32,944 bases of DNA from a virus, in IMG/VR virus record IMGVR_UViG_3300025168_000335, positions 1-32,944 of that record; one strand, 5' to 3'. How positions within the stretch are numbered: position 1 is the stretch's first letter; each line of letters starts with the position of its first letter. The translations under genes were made by a program, and so were the position numbers. The notes under the pieces are model-generated. The model saw only the letters and a program-made list of their open reading frames with translations. It made no database searches and had not been told where the DNA came from. Positions 15,696 to 27,653 of the stretch are shown one piece after another.

Positions 15696-16670
15696 ATGAA
15701 TGAAAATGTAAGATTAGGTTATGCATGTGTCAATATGACATTAACAAATAGACCTAAAAAAGCTGGAGGTAGAGTAACTACTTCAAGAACTGCTAGAAAA
15801 GCGACATGGTATCCAGATCGCAATTATCAATTAATAGGTGAACGTGCATTACTTAATGCAACTGATTTATTGCATTATTTACAATGGAATATAGAACATA
15901 ACATTACATTGTTTCGTATTGGGTCTGAATTATTTCCTTGGCATGACCATTATGAACTTAACCAATTACCACAAATTCAAGAAATTACTGATAGGTTATT
16001 TGAAGCCGGAGAATATGCTAGAGAACATGGTATGAGATTAACTACTCATCCAGGACCTTTCCATGTATTAGGTTCTCCTAGACAAGAAGTAGCTGAACGA
16101 TCTATAATAGGATTAGAACGACATTCAGAAATGTTTGACCTCATGGGATATACACCATCATTTGAAAATAAAATTAATATTCATATAGGTGGCGCCTATG
16201 GAGGCGACTTCGAAGGTACATCAAAACGTTGGATTGCAAATTGGCATAGGTTATCAGATAATCTTAAAGCACGATTAGTATTAGAAAATGATGATAAGGA
16301 TAGCATGTGGTCAGTTAAGATGTTATATGATTATATTCATAAAGAAATAGGAGTTCCTATTACATTTGATTACCACCATCATACATTTCATCCAGATGAA
16401 TTGACAGAAGAGGAAGCTTTACGGTTAGCGGCCACTACATGGCCAGATGATGTTAGACAGTGTTGTCATTATTCAGAAAGTAAAGCAAGAGAATATAAAG
16501 ATGATAAGATTAGAAAACAAGCTCATTCAGATTACATAGTTGATGAGATTAGGACATATGGATTAGATTTAGACATTGTAGTTGAAGCAAAAGCAAAAGA
16601 ATTAGCAGTATTGAATCATAAAAGATTATATAGACAAAAAAATAGGCCAGTTATGGCCTCAGTTAGTTAA
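15696..16670 (+). CDS. uvsE: UV damage endonuclease UvsE/UVDE
   Basis: A full-length 324-residue UVDE-family TIM-barrel endonuclease, which nicks DNA 5' to UV photoproducts and abasic sites with three metal ions and so starts repair without photolyase or UvrABC. Visible family features: VRLGYACVNMTL at the N-terminus, ALLNATDLLHYLQWNIEHNI (His68), LFRIGSELFPW, MRLTTHPGPF (His118), His143, NIHIGGAYGG (His163), LVLENDD (Glu197), FDYHHHTFH (Asp225 to His232), His258 and DIVVEAKAKELAV (Glu297). These give a complete likely metal-ligand set. It has its own promoter and no Shine-Dalgarno. T4 uses the unrelated DenV for the same purpose. Confidence 0.92.
   Translation: MNENVRLGYACVNMTLTNRPKKAGGRVTTSRTARKATWYPDRNYQLIGERALLNATDLLHYLQWNIEHNITLFRIGSELFPWHDHYELNQLPQIQEITDRLFEAGEYAREHGMRLTTHPGPFHVLGSPRQEVAERSIIGLERHSEMFDLMGYTPSFENKINIHIGGAYGGDFEGTSKRWIANWHRLSDNLKARLVLENDDKDSMWSVKMLYDYIHKEIGVPITFDYHHHTFHPDELTEEEALRLAATTWPDDVRQCCHYSESKAREYKDDKIRKQAHSDYIVDEIRTYGLDLDIVVEAKAKELAVLNHKRLYRQKNRPVMASVS
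16636..16659 (-). terminator. Leftward terminator inside uvsE end
   Basis: On the minus strand AGGCCA-TAAC-TGGCCT is a perfect six-base stem followed by A and seven T. This is a good intrinsic terminator for leftward transcripts, yet no leftward gene lies to its right. On the plus strand the same stem lacks a U-run. It could block antisense transcription. Confidence 0.45.
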
Positions 16671-18700: not shown

Positions 18701-19330
18701 ATGAATATGTATGATGAAAGACCTAAACAGGTAAAAAAAGAAACTACAGAATCTCAAGAAGATTCTCCTTACGTAGAATTAAATGAAATACTAGCCAACC
18801 AGCTTGAATTTAATGATTCTGTAATCTATCTTAACGATGATATCAATGAACATACTTTATTTGATTTAATGATACGTGTTCGTCAAATTCTAAAGTATCG
18901 TAAATCAAAAGACTATACTGGCCAATTAAATGATCCTATTAATTTAATGATCAATTCTGCAGGAGGTGATATACATGAGATGATGGGATTAATTGATTAC
19001 ATAGGGTCTTTGAACGTTAAAGTAAATACTATATGTAGAGGTAAAGCTTTTTCAGCAGCCGCGGTTATACTAACATGTGGTACAGGTGTAAGAATGATTA
19101 GTCGTAACTCTACATTAATGTTTCACCAGGCATCATCAATGATATCAGGTAAATTAACTGATGTATCTAATACAGTAGACTTTGTAAGGAAGGTAGAGAA
19201 TGATATATATAATATCCTAGCTGGTAAATCAAAACATGATATGGATTGGTGGAAAAATCAAATGAGATCAGATTTATATCTTACAGCGGATAAGGCATTA
19301 GAATTAGGTGTAGTAGATCAAATAATATAA
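18701..19330 (+). CDS. clpP: ClpP-family serine protease
   Basis: A 209-residue ClpP-fold protease with the whole catalytic triad visible: Ser118 in GKAFSAAAVIL, His142 in LMFHQASS, Asp191 in RSDLYLTADKALELGVVD. The substrate-strand segment INLMINSAGGDIHEMMGLIDYI is typical. ClpP forms tetradecamer chambers fed by Clp ATPases; no Clp ATPase gene is in the window, so it would use the host's. Ala replaces the usual Met after the nucleophile. Phage ClpP homologues are known both as head-maturation proteases and as metabolic helpers. A T4-type cleavage motif elsewhere here would argue for the helper role, but neither is shown. The Met3 codon is an alternative start. Confidence 0.88.
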   Translation: MNMYDERPKQVKKETTESQEDSPYVELNEILANQLEFNDSVIYLNDDINEHTLFDLMIRVRQILKYRKSKDYTGQLNDPINLMINSAGGDIHEMMGLIDYIGSLNVKVNTICRGKAFSAAAVILTCGTGVRMISRNSTLMFHQASSMISGKLTDVSNTVDFVRKVENDIYNILAGKSKHDMDWWKNQMRSDLYLTADKALELGVVDQII

Positions 19331-21249: not shown

Positions 21250-21630
21250 ATGCACGACGAATTTGAAATATTCAAGGGAACAAGCTTCTCAGACTTAATG
21301 AAAGATATCTATCATAATTCTAAAAAGAAAGATAGACAAATTAACACACTTATTCATGAGTTACAACCATTAATAAAGAACATAGGTGATGCAACAATAA
21401 TTGTTCCATTAATTAAAGAATATCTAGATGTATCAGTTAAAAATGATGAACATCTAGTTAAACTAGCAGCAGTTGTACAACGGTTAGTAGGATCAGTAAA
21501 TAATTCTGGTGGAGATGAATTTGGAATGTCCGAAGAAGAAAAGCAGAGATTGCTAGAAACAGCTCAGCAAGAATTAGATAGTATTCATAAAGAACAAGAT
21601 GAAATTAATTTAGGAGGAGGATCTAAATGA
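21250..21630 (+). CDS. Small helical protein ahead of baseplate hub
   Basis: A 126-residue, mostly helical acidic protein (FEIFKGTSFSDLMKDIYHNS, KKKDRQINTLIHELQPLI, then KEYLDVSVKNDEHLVKLAAVVQRLV). It is coupled to the hub gene by a four-base overlap (ATGA) and follows a late-type motif, so it is likely a baseplate assembly or tail accessory protein; I recall similar proteins beside hub genes in marine T4-like phages. The exact function is unknown. The Gly-rich C-terminus (NLGGGSK) also encodes the next gene's GGAGGAGG ribosome site. Confidence 0.65.
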   Translation: MHDEFEIFKGTSFSDLMKDIYHNSKKKDRQINTLIHELQPLIKNIGDATIIVPLIKEYLDVSVKNDEHLVKLAAVVQRLVGSVNNSGGDEFGMSEEEKQRLLETAQQELDSIHKEQDEINLGGGSK

Positions 21631-23276
21631 GTCAAGTAACATGGGCATTTGGAGAGGTAACAAGCCTAGAAAATGCATTTCAACGTACTACAGCACATGA
21701 AGAGAAACAAAAAGATTCAAAAGGTGCACCTGTAGAAACTTTATATCGCGGTGAAATAAATATCATGTTGGCGGCTAATACATCTGGGGCCCCAAAAGGA
21801 TCTCCAGGAAAAACAATTGTAGCATATCCTGCAAATATGAATATGACTCGAATTCCTTTGATAGGTGAACATGTATTATGCTTTCAAGGGCCTGGTAAAG
21901 AAATGGGCCCACAAGGAGCCAATCCTGAAACAGGTGATAAATCTACAGGTAGTACATTTGATTTAGAATGGTATTACTTTGACCCACTTTCATTACAAGG
22001 AAGTATCCATACTAATCTAAACCCAGGAGCAAATGTAGGTGCACCTACAGGAACAGATAATTCAACATCAACACAAGATGGATTAAAGAAGCCTAAATCA
22101 ACTCAATATGAAATGGCCGCTGCTGGTAATCCAACTACTAACTCAGCTAATTCAGCTGCAGGAAAAACTCCTGATACACAAAATACTGCAGACACACCAC
22201 CAGGAAATGATTTCAAAGAAATTGAAGATGTTAATAATCTACAGCCATTTGAAGGAGATGTAATACTACAAGGTAGGTCAGGTCATAGTATAAGACTAGG
22301 AGCTACAGTAAATGTTTCAGCTGAGAGTTCTGCAGAAAAACGATATCAAACAATGCCATCCTGGAGTACAGGAGATGGTGGTGATCAAGCACCGATAATA
22401 ATTATAAGAGCAGGAGCTTCAGATGTACAAAAGAATACTGAGAATAATTATATAATTGAAAAAGTAAACGAAGATAAATCATCTATATATGTTTGTTCTG
22501 GTCAAAAAATTCCAATTGCAATTGCAAGTCCAAAATTTGATGCTCTTACTCAATGCCATAAAAATTGTCCTGATTCTGCTGAAGATGATGAAGGAACGGC
22601 AATTAATAGTACTCATTGTAGTGGAGCATCAGGATCTCCAACTCAGCCAGTAGAACCATTAGATCCAGTTCCTTCATCTGTAGAAGAATTACCATTGGTA
22701 GATGGAGAATGGCCAAAATATAATACTAGGAATGGTAAAGCGCAATCAATGGGTAGACTAAGACTTATACAAGGTGTTCCGGTTTTTGAAAATTTATGCC
22801 CTCATGTACTTAATTTAATAAAAGCAGCAAAGGCAGATGGCCATAGAATAGGACTTAATAGTGGTTATCGTGGTATTAGAGATGTAGTTGTTAATGGAAG
22901 AAAATATGCTTCTGGTCAATTAGATTTAAGAAGACAGAATGCAAAAAATTCAGCATGGAAAACTAATGCAATGATGGATGACCCTAATAGTAAATTATGG
23001 AGATCAAAATCTGGTAACTTTAAACCAGCCACTGCAGCTCCAGGATTTAGTAAACATCAAAATGGTATCGCAATAGATATGAGTACATCATCTAGATCTA
23101 GTAAGACAGGTATGTATAATTGGTTAGTTAATAATGCATATAAATTTGGATTTATAAGAACAGTATCATCAGAAGAATGGCATTTTGAATATAGACCAGG
23201 AAAGAAAACTTTTGATAAAGTAAGTGCTGGTAATGCAAAATGGCATGGACATCAAAAAGGACATATTCATGCATAA
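21627..23276 (+). CDS. 5: gp5-like baseplate hub with M15 peptidase domain
   Basis: A 549-residue protein. Residues 1-125 resemble the gp5 OB-fold hub domain (QVTWAFGEVTSLEN, YRGEINIMLA, MTRIPLIGEHVLCFQGPG). Residues 130-200 are low-complexity Ser/Thr/Ala/Pro. Residues 205-260 carry a second small beta module (GDVILQGRSGHSIRLGATV). Residues about 370-540 are a VanY/M15 D,D-peptidase: SGYR (412-415), SKHQNGIAIDMS with zinc ligands His477 and Asp484, and EEWHFEY with Glu516/517 and His519. T4 gp5 instead carries a lysozyme. The hub therefore probably cuts peptide cross-links of host peptidoglycan during injection. GGAGGAGG gives very strong translation. Confidence 0.85.
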   Translation: MSQVTWAFGEVTSLENAFQRTTAHEEKQKDSKGAPVETLYRGEINIMLAANTSGAPKGSPGKTIVAYPANMNMTRIPLIGEHVLCFQGPGKEMGPQGANPETGDKSTGSTFDLEWYYFDPLSLQGSIHTNLNPGANVGAPTGTDNSTSTQDGLKKPKSTQYEMAAAGNPTTNSANSAAGKTPDTQNTADTPPGNDFKEIEDVNNLQPFEGDVILQGRSGHSIRLGATVNVSAESSAEKRYQTMPSWSTGDGGDQAPIIIIRAGASDVQKNTENNYIIEKVNEDKSSIYVCSGQKIPIAIASPKFDALTQCHKNCPDSAEDDEGTAINSTHCSGASGSPTQPVEPLDPVPSSVEELPLVDGEWPKYNTRNGKAQSMGRLRLIQGVPVFENLCPHVLNLIKAAKADGHRIGLNSGYRGIRDVVVNGRKYASGQLDLRRQNAKNSAWKTNAMMDDPNSKLWRSKSGNFKPATAAPGFSKHQNGIAIDMSTSSRSSKTGMYNWLVNNAYKFGFIRTVSSEEWHFEYRPGKKTFDKVSAGNAKWHGHQKGHIHA

Positions 23277-23316
23277 AGAGATAAATTATGGTAATAAATA
23301 AAGAAGGAGTAATCTA

Positions 23317-24675
23317 ATGGGATGGAAACCAGGTGATCCACCCGACATGTCCGGATTCAAATTTGACTTTGGCAAGGTGGATAATGCAACTAAAAATAAA
23401 ATGGAAAAGTATTCTGAATTATTAGAACAAGGAGGAGGAAAACTCCCAGTAGTAATAGACAGGACAACCACCGTGTTTGATGGCGAGATGTGGGGACTAT
23501 CAAATGTGTATATTTTTCCAGAAAAGAATAGACATGTACATGGTGTAATATGGGTAATCCCAGGATGTGATAATCCAGGTGTAGCATATGGAGAAGGATC
23601 TGGTTTCAGTGCACAAAATTTTGCATATGACCAAATTAAAATTAAAATTGCACAAGGAATAATAGAACAAGATGATTGGGTAGTTGTTATCGGTCCAAGG
23701 CATGAATATTCCTTATCACAATTATCAAGTAATGCAAAGGATACATTTCATAAAGAATTCTTTAATTATACAGAACATATTGATTTATGTGGTTGTTGTA
23801 AAGATGACCAAGATAGAGAATTTATTAATGTGTTGATTGCAATGGGAGATGGTGCAAGTGCTGTTGATTTCAATGATCCAACAATAACAAATGTAGTATT
23901 AGTCGATCCAATATTATATAATCCTGATATACCAGAAGGATTAACTCCATATGTGACAATTGTACATAATCCAGGAAATCATGATCCAACGACTACAGCA
24001 GGTAATGCAACAGCGATTGCAATAGAAACAAATACACTTAATTTTGGAAGTAATTATAATATACCATCATCAACTGGGTTTAACCATACCGGTTGTTTTG
24101 CAGCAGGATTAGCAGCATTTGCATTTGGTGCGGCGACTCAATTACTCGCAACCCAAACCCCAGCCAACCTTGATGATTTAATAGCAGAGGCCGATCTTCT
24201 AGCAGATTATGATGGAGAATTAAAAGATAATGGAGGAGTTACTGCAGATCCAAAAAATGACCCCGCGGAAGAAACAAAAGAATCAGAAGGTACAGAACCA
24301 ACCGGATGCTCAGATTTTACAGGACCCCAAATTGTTATTACATCAGACAGGTTAGTATTCAATTCAAAAGCAGATAGTATATTAATATCATCAAATACAC
24401 ATATAGGATTATCTGCAAAAGAAAATGTTGGTATTGATGCAGAAGGATACTTTACAGTAGATTCACCAGAAATTAATTTAGGATTACATGCAACAGAGCC
24501 AATATTATTAGGCGACAAGACAGGTGATTGGTTAGATGGATTGGTTAATGCAATACAATTATTAACATATACAAATGCTGGTGGACCAACTGGCCCAGCA
24601 ATTAATGCTGCAACGTTAAATGTATATAAACAAACCATCAAGACATTAAAAAGCCCTCAGAATAAGACCTTATAA
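23317..24675 (+). CDS. Tail spike-like protein, alpha/beta-hydrolase-like N-terminus
   Basis: A 452-residue protein. The C-terminal part (about 335-430) has short repeating strands (QIVITSDRLVFNSKADSILISS, HIGLSAKENVGIDAEGYFTV, PEINLGLHATEPILLGDKTG), the beta-helix style of gp5-type membrane-piercing spikes. Residues 70-235 read like an alpha/beta hydrolase: a strand with HGVIWVIPGCDNPG (oxyanion-loop position), a turn in VLIAMGDGASAVDF where a nucleophile elbow belongs, VVLVDPIL and a late His in TIVHNPGNHD. The expected Ser is not in the elbow (GDG), so it may use Asp or be inactive. An AAGGAG site lies eight bases upstream. It is likely the tail-tip partner of the hub gene. Confidence 0.65.
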   Translation: MGWKPGDPPDMSGFKFDFGKVDNATKNKMEKYSELLEQGGGKLPVVIDRTTTVFDGEMWGLSNVYIFPEKNRHVHGVIWVIPGCDNPGVAYGEGSGFSAQNFAYDQIKIKIAQGIIEQDDWVVVIGPRHEYSLSQLSSNAKDTFHKEFFNYTEHIDLCGCCKDDQDREFINVLIAMGDGASAVDFNDPTITNVVLVDPILYNPDIPEGLTPYVTIVHNPGNHDPTTTAGNATAIAIETNTLNFGSNYNIPSSTGFNHTGCFAAGLAAFAFGAATQLLATQTPANLDDLIAEADLLADYDGELKDNGGVTADPKNDPAEETKESEGTEPTGCSDFTGPQIVITSDRLVFNSKADSILISSNTHIGLSAKENVGIDAEGYFTVDSPEINLGLHATEPILLGDKTGDWLDGLVNAIQLLTYTNAGGPTGPAINAATLNVYKQTIKTLKSPQNKTL

Positions 24676-24700
24676 AAAGTATCATACTTTATAGTATCTT

Positions 24701-24715
24701 CATATTTATATTAAA
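24701..24715 (+). promoter_or_regulatory. Candidate late promoter
   Basis: CATATTTATATTAAA, identical to the copies at 1455, 5586 and 7723. The ribosome site GGAG follows and the ATG is at 24732. An AAGTAT-C-ATACTT inverted repeat lies about 15 bases upstream. Confidence 0.6.
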
Positions 24716-24731
24716 ATAAATGGAGAATACT

Positions 24732-25157
24732 ATGAACACAAAAAGTTTTGTAAAGATTTTACGTAAAGTTGTAAGGGAAGAAGTTCGTACAGCACTTAAA
24801 GATGTACTAAATGAAACACCGGTTACTGATAAACAAGTTATTAATAATGGTGTAGGTTTACATGATTTAATAGAAAATCGATCAACCGTTAAAAAGAAAT
24901 TTGCTAAGAATTCAATGTTAAATGATATTTTGAATGAAACCGCAGATACAGCAGATTTTGCATCAATGAATGAATATCCTTCAATGGGAGATATGATGTC
25001 ATCTAATATGGTTAAAGAACCATTAGAAGGAATTAATGGAGAATCAGTTGATACATCTAAACCTGAGATTCAAGCTATAGACAAAGCAATCAATAGAGAT
25101 TATAGCGGGTTAATGAAAGCAATGAATAAGAAAAATGGAAGAATGGGAGTTAGTTAA
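24732..25157 (+). CDS. Protein with shared N-terminal helix, 141 residues
   Basis: A 141-residue protein; ATG 24732 is chosen over 24720 because GGAG lies seven bases before it. It begins with the shared helix in its longest form (VKILRKVVREEVRTALKDVLNE|T); LNE|T fits P3 and P1 of the prohead-protease site but not P1'. A second similar site, LNE|T(A), occurs near residue 75 (NDILNETADTA). The rest is polar with Met-rich helices. Its place inside the baseplate block is unlike the other members, so the helix may be a virion-assembly tag more general than head targeting. It is two bases from gp25. Confidence 0.6.
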   Translation: MNTKSFVKILRKVVREEVRTALKDVLNETPVTDKQVINNGVGLHDLIENRSTVKKKFAKNSMLNDILNETADTADFASMNEYPSMGDMMSSNMVKEPLEGINGESVDTSKPEIQAIDKAINRDYSGLMKAMNKKNGRMGVS

Positions 25158-25159
25158 TA

Positions 25160-25762
25160 ATGCCAGATAAATACTTCAATACAAAAAAGCAATCAGCATA
25201 TGCAAAGGGCGGAGGCCGTCCTGTATATACATATGATCCTTTAGATCTAGAAGTTGATATTGCAATTGGAGTAATGTTGCCATTTAATGGAAGTGCAAAA
25301 TCATTAGATGGTGCATTTGGTAGACATGACTTTGTATCTCAATCTATTGATACTGCAAATACAAATGCAGAAAAAATATTAGGAAAATTTCCGTTATCAT
25401 ATACTACTCAAGAACAAGCATTATCAAACCTTAAGAATTTATTATTAACATATCCTGGTGAAAGATATATGCAACCAACATTTGGTGTAAGAATTAAAGA
25501 TAGAGTATTTGAACAAAATACACCAGAATTAGTAATTAATCTTAATAGAGAAATCCAAGATGCAATTGGAACATGGCTTCCATATATTAAAATTAATTCT
25601 ATTCAAATTAATAATGAAGATGAATATAATAATTTAACAAATTATTTATTTATTAAAATAGAATACAAAGTAACAGAACAAGGTGCAAACCAAGTAATAA
25701 CATTAGTAAGTAATGGTGAACAAACAACAACTGTAGAATCAGATACAACTACAGGATATTAG
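25160..25762 (+). CDS. 25: gp25-like baseplate wedge protein
   Basis: A 200-residue member of the gp25/IraD-type family. The diagnostic segment is NLLLTYPGERYMQPTFGVRI (Glu101-Arg102), the conserved core that holds gp6 dimers and the sheath-initiating wedge in contractile tails and type VI secretion (TssE). An N-terminal extension of about 30 residues (GGGRPVYTYDPLDL) precedes the usual domain; T4 gp25 has 132 residues. Position immediately before gp6 and a GGAG just upstream support the call. Confidence 0.9.
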   Translation: MPDKYFNTKKQSAYAKGGGRPVYTYDPLDLEVDIAIGVMLPFNGSAKSLDGAFGRHDFVSQSIDTANTNAEKILGKFPLSYTTQEQALSNLKNLLLTYPGERYMQPTFGVRIKDRVFEQNTPELVINLNREIQDAIGTWLPYIKINSIQINNEDEYNNLTNYLFIKIEYKVTEQGANQVITLVSNGEQTTTVESDTTTGY

Positions 25763-25772
25763 GAAAAAGATT

Positions 25773-27653
25773 ATGGCAGACTTAATTCAAAAAGACGTAA
25801 AATATTTAGCTAAAGATTTTGGCGAATTCAGACAAAATTTAATAAACTTTACAAAAAATTATTTTCCTAATACATATAACGATTTTAACGAATCATCACC
25901 TGGAATGATGTTTATGGAAATGTCATCATATGTAGGAGATGTATTAGCATATTATAGTGATTCAAATCTTAAAGAATCATTACTTGCTTCAGCAGAGGAG
26001 ATATCCAATGTACAATCAATTGCAGATGCATTAGGATATAAAAGTAAAAATGTTATTCCATCATTAGTTGATATTGATGTATATCAAACAGTACCGGTAA
26101 TAGGATCTGGAGTAAACGCAAAACCAGATTATAATTATGCATTATCATTAAATGCAGGAATGACAGTAAAATCAAATACAGGAGTTGATTTTAGAACTTT
26201 AATGCCAATAGATTTTAATTCATCAGGATCGGGTCCAGGACAAAGAATAGTAACAGTTTATCAAATTGATGAAACGACTGGTACGCCGACATATTATCTA
26301 TTAAAAAAATCTACACAAGCAATATCAGGTGAGATAGTATCAATGGATTATAGTTTTGATGAACCAAAAATATATGATAAGATTGTTTTATCAGAAGATA
26401 ATGCAATTGAAATATTAGATATAAATGATAGCCATGGTAATAAATGGTATGAGGTTCCATATCTTGCACAAGATACAATACAGGAATCTATACGTAACAC
26501 GCCAATGATAGATCCTCAATTATCTAGTTATGCATCTAGTGTACCATATATACTAAAATTAAAACGAACAGCTAAAAGATTTATATCTAGATTTAGAGCA
26601 GATAATAAACTTGAGATACAATTTGGAGCAGGTATATCAGAAGAACATGATAGAGATTTAATACCTAATCCAGAAAATGTAGGTTTAGGTATTAAAGGAT
26701 TTAATCGAGAAGTAGACTTATCCATAGATCCAGCAAACTTTCTATATTCTAGTACATATGGACAAGCACCATCTCAAACCACATTAACAGTTCGATATTC
26801 TCTAGGAAAGGGGATACAAGATAATGTACCAGCAAATTCGATACAAGAAGTATCAGCAGTAACATATGCATCAGCTACTGCAGATCTTAATTCTTCATTA
26901 GTAGCGCAAGCAAAGAATTCAGTTGCCGTTAATAATCCAGCTCCATCAAAAGGTGGTGCCTCAAAAGAGCCATTAGAGACAATCCGACAAAAATCGTTAT
27001 CAGTGTTTGCTGCACAGAATAGAGCAGTAACAAGAGAGGATTATATATTAAGGTGTTATACAATGCCAGCTAAATTTGGAAGTGTTGCAAAGGCATATAT
27101 AATACAAGATGAGCAAGTAGATTCGACAGATCCTAACTCTAAAATACCTAATCCGTTAGCTATGAATATTTATACAAAAGGATATAATTCATCTCAACAA
27201 TTAGTTCCATTAAATGAAGCAATCAAACAAAATCTAAAAACATATATTGAGCAGTTTAGATTAATGACGGATGCAATAAACATTAAAGATGCATTTATAA
27301 TAAACCTAGGAATTGAATTTGAAGTAATTCCAAAGCCTAATTATAATGGCTCAGAAGTAGTAATAAAATGTATTGATAAATTAAAATCATTATTACATGT
27401 AGATAATATGCAAATTAATGCACCAATTATAATATCTGATTTATATAGTACATTAGATGAATTAGACGGTGTACAAACAGTATCGGATGTAACGGTAACA
27501 AATTTATATAATTCAAATGCAGGATATTCAGGAAATATATACGACATTAAAGCAGCAACATTAAATAATATAATATACCCATCATTAGATCCATGTATAT
27601 TTGAAATCAGATATCCAAATGCAGATCTAAGAGGTCGTATTGTAGGATTATAA
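25773..27653 (+). CDS. 6: gp6-like baseplate wedge (baseplate J family)
   Basis: A 626-residue protein close to T4 gp6 in length (660). The N-terminal NESSPGMMFMEMSSYVGDVLAYYSD (residues about 38-62) is the wedge-dimer signature. The C-terminal AVTREDYILRCYTMPAKFGSVAKAYI (residues about 416-441) is the baseplate-J core motif. gp6 forms the ring joining baseplate wedges around the hub. Gene order gp25-gp6 is as in many contractile tails. The ribosome site is AGGAAAA. Confidence 0.9.
   Translation: MADLIQKDVKYLAKDFGEFRQNLINFTKNYFPNTYNDFNESSPGMMFMEMSSYVGDVLAYYSDSNLKESLLASAEEISNVQSIADALGYKSKNVIPSLVDIDVYQTVPVIGSGVNAKPDYNYALSLNAGMTVKSNTGVDFRTLMPIDFNSSGSGPGQRIVTVYQIDETTGTPTYYLLKKSTQAISGEIVSMDYSFDEPKIYDKIVLSEDNAIEILDINDSHGNKWYEVPYLAQDTIQESIRNTPMIDPQLSSYASSVPYILKLKRTAKRFISRFRADNKLEIQFGAGISEEHDRDLIPNPENVGLGIKGFNREVDLSIDPANFLYSSTYGQAPSQTTLTVRYSLGKGIQDNVPANSIQEVSAVTYASATADLNSSLVAQAKNSVAVNNPAPSKGGASKEPLETIRQKSLSVFAAQNRAVTREDYILRCYTMPAKFGSVAKAYIIQDEQVDSTDPNSKIPNPLAMNIYTKGYNSSQQLVPLNEAIKQNLKTYIEQFRLMTDAINIKDAFIINLGIEFEVIPKPNYNGSEVVIKCIDKLKSLLHVDNMQINAPIIISDLYSTLDELDGVQTVSDVTVTNLYNSNAGYSGNIYDIKAATLNNIIYPSLDPCIFEIRYPNADLRGRIVGL

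Follow-up and report, generated by a model that had tools for sequence, protein, structure and literature searches.

The closest described counterpart of the locus analysed here is gp5 of phage T4, which passages in two reports (PMC4576200, PMC3004832) present as the product of a single gene with a lysozyme domain between an OB hub and a needle, cut at Ser351/Ala352 in the linker between lysozyme and needle. According to a passage in one of these (PMC3004832), the needle blocks the enzyme, and the departure of the needle unblocks it. A further point of comparison is provided by the NDRG proteins, which a passage in PMC7022630 describes as cellular, non-enzymatic proteins with an alpha/beta-hydrolase fold in which the catalytic residues are replaced. 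We analysed a 32,944-base virus record, referred to below over its whole length as the window, and in it an open reading frame (ORF) at 23317 to 24675 that an earlier note had described as a spike protein with a hydrolase-like N-terminal domain lacking the usual Ser. The parts of the locus described below, from 21627 to 27653, lie on the plus strand. The ORF encodes 452 amino acids, as claimed, and each of the four motifs quoted for it was located: HGVIWVIPG at residues 75 to 83, MGDGASA at 176 to 182, VVLVDPIL at 193 to 200, and HNPGNHD at 217 to 223.

The protein begins with an N-terminal extension (residues 1 to 43; 23317 to 23445) that, in the alignment, is absent or different in its relatives, the starts of which vary. 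There follow a domain of 235 residues with a predicted alpha/beta-hydrolase fold (residues 44 to 278; 23446 to 24150), assigned with AF2, Foldseek, and VIA; a variable linker (residues 279 to 330; 24151 to 24306), in which the window is 30 to 40% identical to loci L085 and L086; and the needle half of a putative gp5-like protein (residues 331 to 452; 24307 to 24672), assigned from sequence and profile matches. The whole ORF matched no Pfam family and no PDB sequence, and its match to PHROG was weak (E 0.018). When viral_contigs was scanned with single proteins (the whole ORF, its C-terminus, or its N-terminus), no relatives were retrieved; alignments were required to find them.

Immediately upstream lies an ORF of 549 amino acids (21627 to 23276) that carries a gp5-like hub half, delimited by the hub match (residues 28 to 307; 21708 to 22547), and a predicted M15/VanY peptidase domain (residues 393 to 524; 22803 to 23198; Pfam VanY, E 2.9e-12), whose stretches SKHQNGIAID (residue 475) and EEWHFE (residue 516) align to solved D-Ala-D-Ala carboxypeptidases. 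The frame of the needle ORF opens at 23302, after the stop of the upstream ORF at 23276, and a Shine-Dalgarno-like AAGGAG (23304 to 23309) ends 7 bases before its ATG; the ORF at 23317 to 24675 therefore encodes a protein in its own right. Downstream are a 145-amino-acid ORF (24720 to 25157) that is kept in the same place in relatives, a gp25-like baseplate wedge gene (25160 to 25762; Pfam GPW_gp25, E 3.6e-16), and a gp6-like baseplate wedge gene (25773 to 27653; PHROG baseplate wedge subunit, best E 1.2e-15). The product of the gp6-like gene shares 49.4% identity with its counterpart in Microcystis phage Mel-JY01 (a 190-kb record) and 39.6% with the one in Flavobacterium phage immuto (160 kb), and by this comparison the window virus belongs with the large myoviruses. 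Elsewhere in the window, a ClpP-like protein (18701 to 19330) matches PHROG head maturation proteases (best E 7e-36), and a protein at 15696 to 16670 matches a PHROG endonuclease family (E 1.8e-47).

We compared the two ORFs with single-gene relatives. Needle residues 331 to 446 match the C-terminal half of WWT39504.1 of Mel-JY01 (E 1e-11), and residues 317 to 411 match the C-terminal half of QQO91834.1 of immuto (E 4e-9), while the upstream ORF matches the N-terminal halves of the same two proteins (E 2e-22 and E 8e-4, respectively). Because the two ORFs match opposite halves of the same genes, the pair in the window corresponds to the halves of a gene that is whole in relatives, and residues from about 331 to 452 appear to correspond to the needle portion of a puncturing protein of the gp5 kind. 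These homologies and the gene layout show a split in which the hub and a predicted M15 peptidoglycan peptidase come from the upstream protein and the needle comes from the ORF at 23317 to 24675, the product of which would serve as the needle subunit of the particle. The fusion of a hydrolase-like domain to a spike-like C-terminus beside baseplate genes, as the earlier note had it, is thus borne out by the needle homology and the adjoining gp25-like and gp6-like wedges; what that note had missed is that, as judged by homology, the protein and the upstream M15-bearing ORF are the two halves of one split gp5-like gene. A profile of the needle matched the T6SS VgrG spike weakly (E 0.0062). Neither hub nor needle significantly matched a gp5 sequence or profile, and the hub was placed by homology and by the neighbouring wedge genes. 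In the full-length AF2 model, pLDDT was 48.9 overall and under 50 in the needle part. The wall-degrading domain that gp5 has between hub and needle is present as the VanY/M15 domain at residues 393 to 524 of the hub ORF, a peptidase rather than a lysozyme; the one-gene, cleaved layout of gp5 is absent from the window, where there are two ORFs, the second with its own AAGGAG. A frameshift joining the two ORFs was considered for the window, L085, and L088 and rejected for these three, in which the needle frame opens after the hub stop; a frameshift may apply at loci whose hub and needle frames overlap.

Profile scans of viral_contigs with the two halves gave the best 80 of at least 257 loci, and 68 loci. 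Iterated profiles were then run over all loci retrieved and the window, and 157 entries matched, of which 124 had hub and needle in one ORF, 28 had them in two ORFs, 1 had a hub only, and 4 had a needle only. Since the 157 entries include the same contigs fetched twice, distinct contigs were counted manually, giving 119 unsplit and 26 split. Seven of the 26, including the window, carry the hydrolase-like domain and 19 lack it; an eighth bearer, L156, has only its needle gene visible. In the unsplit entries the joint between hub and needle is 1 to 17 residues long (median, 4; 124/124). Where both genes of a split pair are present, the hub ORF continues for 242 to 415 residues past the hub match (68 in L150), and 5 to 17 residues precede the needle match in the needle ORF, or 294 to 333 when the extra domain is present (286 in L156).

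Pfam was searched with the hub ORFs that were left, 12 split and 61 unsplit, after near-copies had been removed at 90% needle identity. M15 families were found in 11 of the 12 split hub ORFs (VanY in 10 and Peptidase_M15_3 in L099), the one without being that of L150, and in a single one of the 61 unsplit hub ORFs, that of L016. At the latter locus (L016:285-1955) the M15 domain of the unsplit hub-needle ORF lies at residues 419 to 532, after the needle match (240 to 335). The L150 locus (L150:4796-7426) is split three ways, into a hub ORF, a separate 407-amino-acid ORF with no Pfam match, and a needle ORF. On a tree of 73 entries, built with a quick method, the split/unsplit label takes 3 changes, only 1 of which is forced by the starred branches, so that one split or several are both possible. 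The five entries on this tree with the hydrolase-like domain form one group with a support of 100, and the domain is an addition in one clade, comprising 8 contigs. Other variations in layout were also seen. The hub match falls in two pieces about 95 to 135 residues apart in L085:1703-3724, L153:4528-6900, L154:4584-6956, and L155:4102-6459, indicating an insertion within the hub of these four ORFs that is absent from the window. The unsplit hub-needle ORF at L089:3172-5490 (773 amino acids) carries a tail of Gly/Thr-rich repeats as well as additional C-terminal sequence. A distant hub encoded by a single gene (L004:5611-7068) occurs in LR756508.1, a 484-kb uncultured phage whose gp6-like gene product is 40.7% identical to that of the window.

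The eight contigs bearing the hydrolase-like domain are the window, L085, L086, L087, and L153 to L156. Further viral scans with domain profiles added no contigs to the first seven, and a search of genome_contigs with the domain profile found none. The domain matched no Pfam family (two single weak matches, best E 0.072), PHROG matched weakly for one of the eight proteins (E 0.0051), and the profile retrieved PDB sequences only at E 1.4 or worse. The window's record had no match to Pfam Esterase (PF00756, E ≤ 10) or DLH (PF01738, E ≤ 0.001), searches that gave matches in 13 and 12, respectively, of 14 control genomes. AF2 was run on residues 44 to 278 with the 8-member alignment (six sequences after redundancy filtering) and no templates. 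The best model had a pLDDT of 70.5 and a pTM of 0.77 (pLDDT of the other four, 66.2, 53.7, 44.7, and 36.1), and its order of strands and helices is that of the canonical alpha/beta-hydrolase core; the full-length run gave the same order of elements at low confidence. Foldseek matched the model to 211 PDB entries at E ≤ 1e-3, of which 50 were listed, with TM-scores of about 0.4 to 0.5, led by PETase, dienelactone hydrolase, cutinase, and enterobactin esterase. VIA, a second look at Foldseek's own list, placed the CE1 feruloyl esterase 5cxu best among the matches listed (Z 14.2, 3.3 Å, 193/235 residues, about 10% identity), and all 50 listed were alpha/beta-hydrolase-type by title at Z ≥ 12.6, the value for human esterase D (3fcx). 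Of the viral models, the one matched best was an uncharacterised phage protein of 204 residues, followed by phage esterases. A moderate-confidence model thus shows an alpha/beta-hydrolase fold for residues 44 to 278, and the hydrolase-like order of motifs in the earlier note is, on the AF2 fold and these matches, more than chance; an unrelated fold had been set beforehand as refuting that reading, and the fold predicted was that of an alpha/beta hydrolase. The domain is under purifying selection (NG86 dN/dS, 0.097 to 0.36 in seven pairs, six of them with a synonymous divergence of at least 0.6; needle, 0.018 to 0.197 in the six computable pairs) and is therefore not a decaying remnant.

Nucleophile elbows follow a small-x-Nu-x-small rule. 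The elbow of the window protein (residues 175 to 181, AMGDGAS; 23839 to 23859) has no Ser at the candidate nucleophile positions, 177 to 179; the modelled strand ends at 176, and GDGASA forms a short helix at 177 to 182. Over the eight proteins, columns 175 to 181 read A; M, V, or Y; G; D; G or A; A or C; and S, N, or G, with G177-D178 invariant in 8/8 and residue 179 a G in six and an A in two. The nucleophile can be placed in three registers, at G177, D178, or residue 179, and Ser occurs in none of them; the register at G177 (A-x-G-x-G/A) fits the rule, and that at D178 has M, V, or Y two places earlier. Three registers are given because profile comparisons with E. coli FrmB and YeiG, and with these two plus 78 relatives of FrmB (78 of 80; two without GHSMGG were left out), were not significant (Prob 0.2). 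MAFFT places the FrmB Ser opposite residue 174, in conflict with the modelled strand at 170 to 176, and these alignments were used only as a note on H257. Elbow Ser was thus absent from all eight proteins (A-x-G-D-G/A), in agreement with the earlier note's statement that the usual nucleophile is missing. Of the other candidate residues, assigned by position, D223 (23983 to 23985), the best candidate for a catalytic acid, is invariant in 8/8. The best candidate for a catalytic His is H257 (24085 to 24087), which lies within GFNHTGCF, where the last helix begins; it is present in the window, L085, L086, and L087 and replaced by F in L153 to L156. Across the eight proteins, the domain has no invariant column of His or Ser; H75 of HGVIWV is R in the other seven. 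Invariant columns number 16/64 in the loops assigned to the active-site face, 15/63 in other loops, and 20/108 in helices and strands. The active-site face is thus no more conserved than other loops, which argues against a conserved active site but offers no hint of a conserved binding pocket either. The sole invariant Cys of the domain, C158 (23788 to 23790; 8/8), has further Cys residues around it (DLCGCC in most), in a region where the confidence of the model is low.

These results make a conserved enzyme across the eight-protein family unlikely. With no Ser at the elbow and H257 lost in half of the family, the domain is most likely a non-catalytic, pseudoenzyme-like module that would bind or prop rather than cut. 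The reading that we prefer, at a probability of roughly one-half, is that the ORF encodes the needle of a split gp5-like device in which this module docks the needle to the peptidase-bearing hub. The retention of H257 and D223 in the window's subgroup, as might be expected of an enzyme, speaks against a pseudoenzyme, and the distinct split viruses that lack the domain, 19 in number, speak against docking as a general need. The earlier note had left three readings side by side, an Asp nucleophile, a Ser variant at the nearby Ser, and an inactive binding domain, and the last of these fits best. An active Asp-nucleophile hydrolase of the dehalogenase or epoxide hydrolase kind, with D178, H257, and D223 as its catalytic residues, in the four-member subgroup of the window at least, is improbable in our view. 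The invariance of D178 and D223 would suit it, as would the pairing of H257, in all three MAFFT modes, with the E. coli FrmB His in GYDH, which we take to be catalytic. That FrmB comparison was not significant, however, D178 fits only one of the three registers and has M, V, or Y two places before it, D178 is kept in the four proteins in which H257 has become F, and Ser esterases and PETases head the fold matches. A catalytic role for another residue is very improbable: S181 of the window lies near the elbow, but over the eight proteins position 181 reads S, N, S, S, G, G, G, S, so that the Ser variant fails in half of them, and the residue sits inside the modelled helix; C158 has its invariance in its favour but lies in a stretch with a pLDDT under 50 and away from the elbow in sequence.

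Binding could also be directed outward, with an esterase-like pocket holding a glycan or wall polymer of the host surface and no role in joining hub and needle. The best structural matches of the domain, CE1 feruloyl esterases, act on plant cell-wall glycans, and, like many binding modules, the domain is an optional extra. The loops of the active-site face are only as conserved as the others, though, and, by inference from T4, the baseplate would enclose a domain seated at the needle base until contraction; we regard this alternative as doubtful, if the most plausible of those set against docking. It is also improbable, about as much as an Asp nucleophile, that the fold call itself is wrong and that AF2 drew some other three-layer alpha/beta fold as a hydrolase from a thin alignment. 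Only eight sequences were available, six after filtering, three of the five models had a pLDDT under 60, TM-scores were about 0.4 to 0.5, and no sequence-profile match was found; against this, the core order is canonical, the Z-score of 14.2 over 193/235 residues was reached without templates, and the full-length run repeats the order of elements, at low confidence. Among possible functions, we infer that docking or shielding ranks first, envelope binding second, and an Asp-nucleophile enzyme in the window's subgroup third.

If the docking reading is correct, the hydrolase-like domain would form a trimer near the M15 peptidase at the upper end of the needle, roughly in the position that the lysozyme domains occupy in T4 gp5, and would dock the separately made needle onto the peptidase-bearing hub; it may also shield the M15 peptidase. 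By analogy with T4, the needle would pierce and depart upon tail contraction, and the M15 domain would then be freed to open the wall. As a speculative extension, to which we give little more than a small chance, a lineage of large myoviruses may have swapped the proteolytic maturation of gp5 for a gene split at the same joint, possibly repeatedly and nearly always with an M15 domain, and one clade may have taken an esterase into service as a "pseudo-esterase" collar, devoid of a nucleophile, that keeps the needle joined to the peptidase hub until contraction.

In the titles and abstract openings listed by searches of the open-licence literature we found no gp5 split into two genes and no such fusion, which is weak evidence of absence. 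If these readings hold, the cleavage that separates enzyme from needle in T4 has a counterpart at the gene level, and the purpose of that cut becomes testable through split and unsplit relatives; a pseudoenzyme with a hydrolase fold joins the known tail-tip parts, and caution is due before such spike proteins are annotated as esterases or depolymerases. In its predicted fold only, the domain is like CE1 feruloyl esterase and esterase D, from which it differs in lacking the nucleophile Ser and any Pfam Esterase or DLH match and in its identity of about 10%. By description, with no kinship claimed, it resembles NDRG in having a hydrolase fold with replaced catalytic residues, whereas NDRG proteins are cellular. 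WWT39504.1 and QQO91834.1 are homologous to both halves of the window pair; unlike that pair, they are single-gene proteins whose joint contains no peptidase and which have no hydrolase-like domain. With T4 gp5, which matures to gp5* and gp5C, the window shares the order of hub, wall enzyme, and needle, the break between enzyme and needle, and a likeness in the adjoining gp25-like and gp6-like wedge genes. It differs from T4 in having two genes in place of one cleaved gene, an M15 peptidase in place of the lysozyme, and a needle chain enlarged by a hydrolase-like domain. By analogy, the split resembles the gp5*/gp5C maturation cut of T4 turned into a gene boundary.
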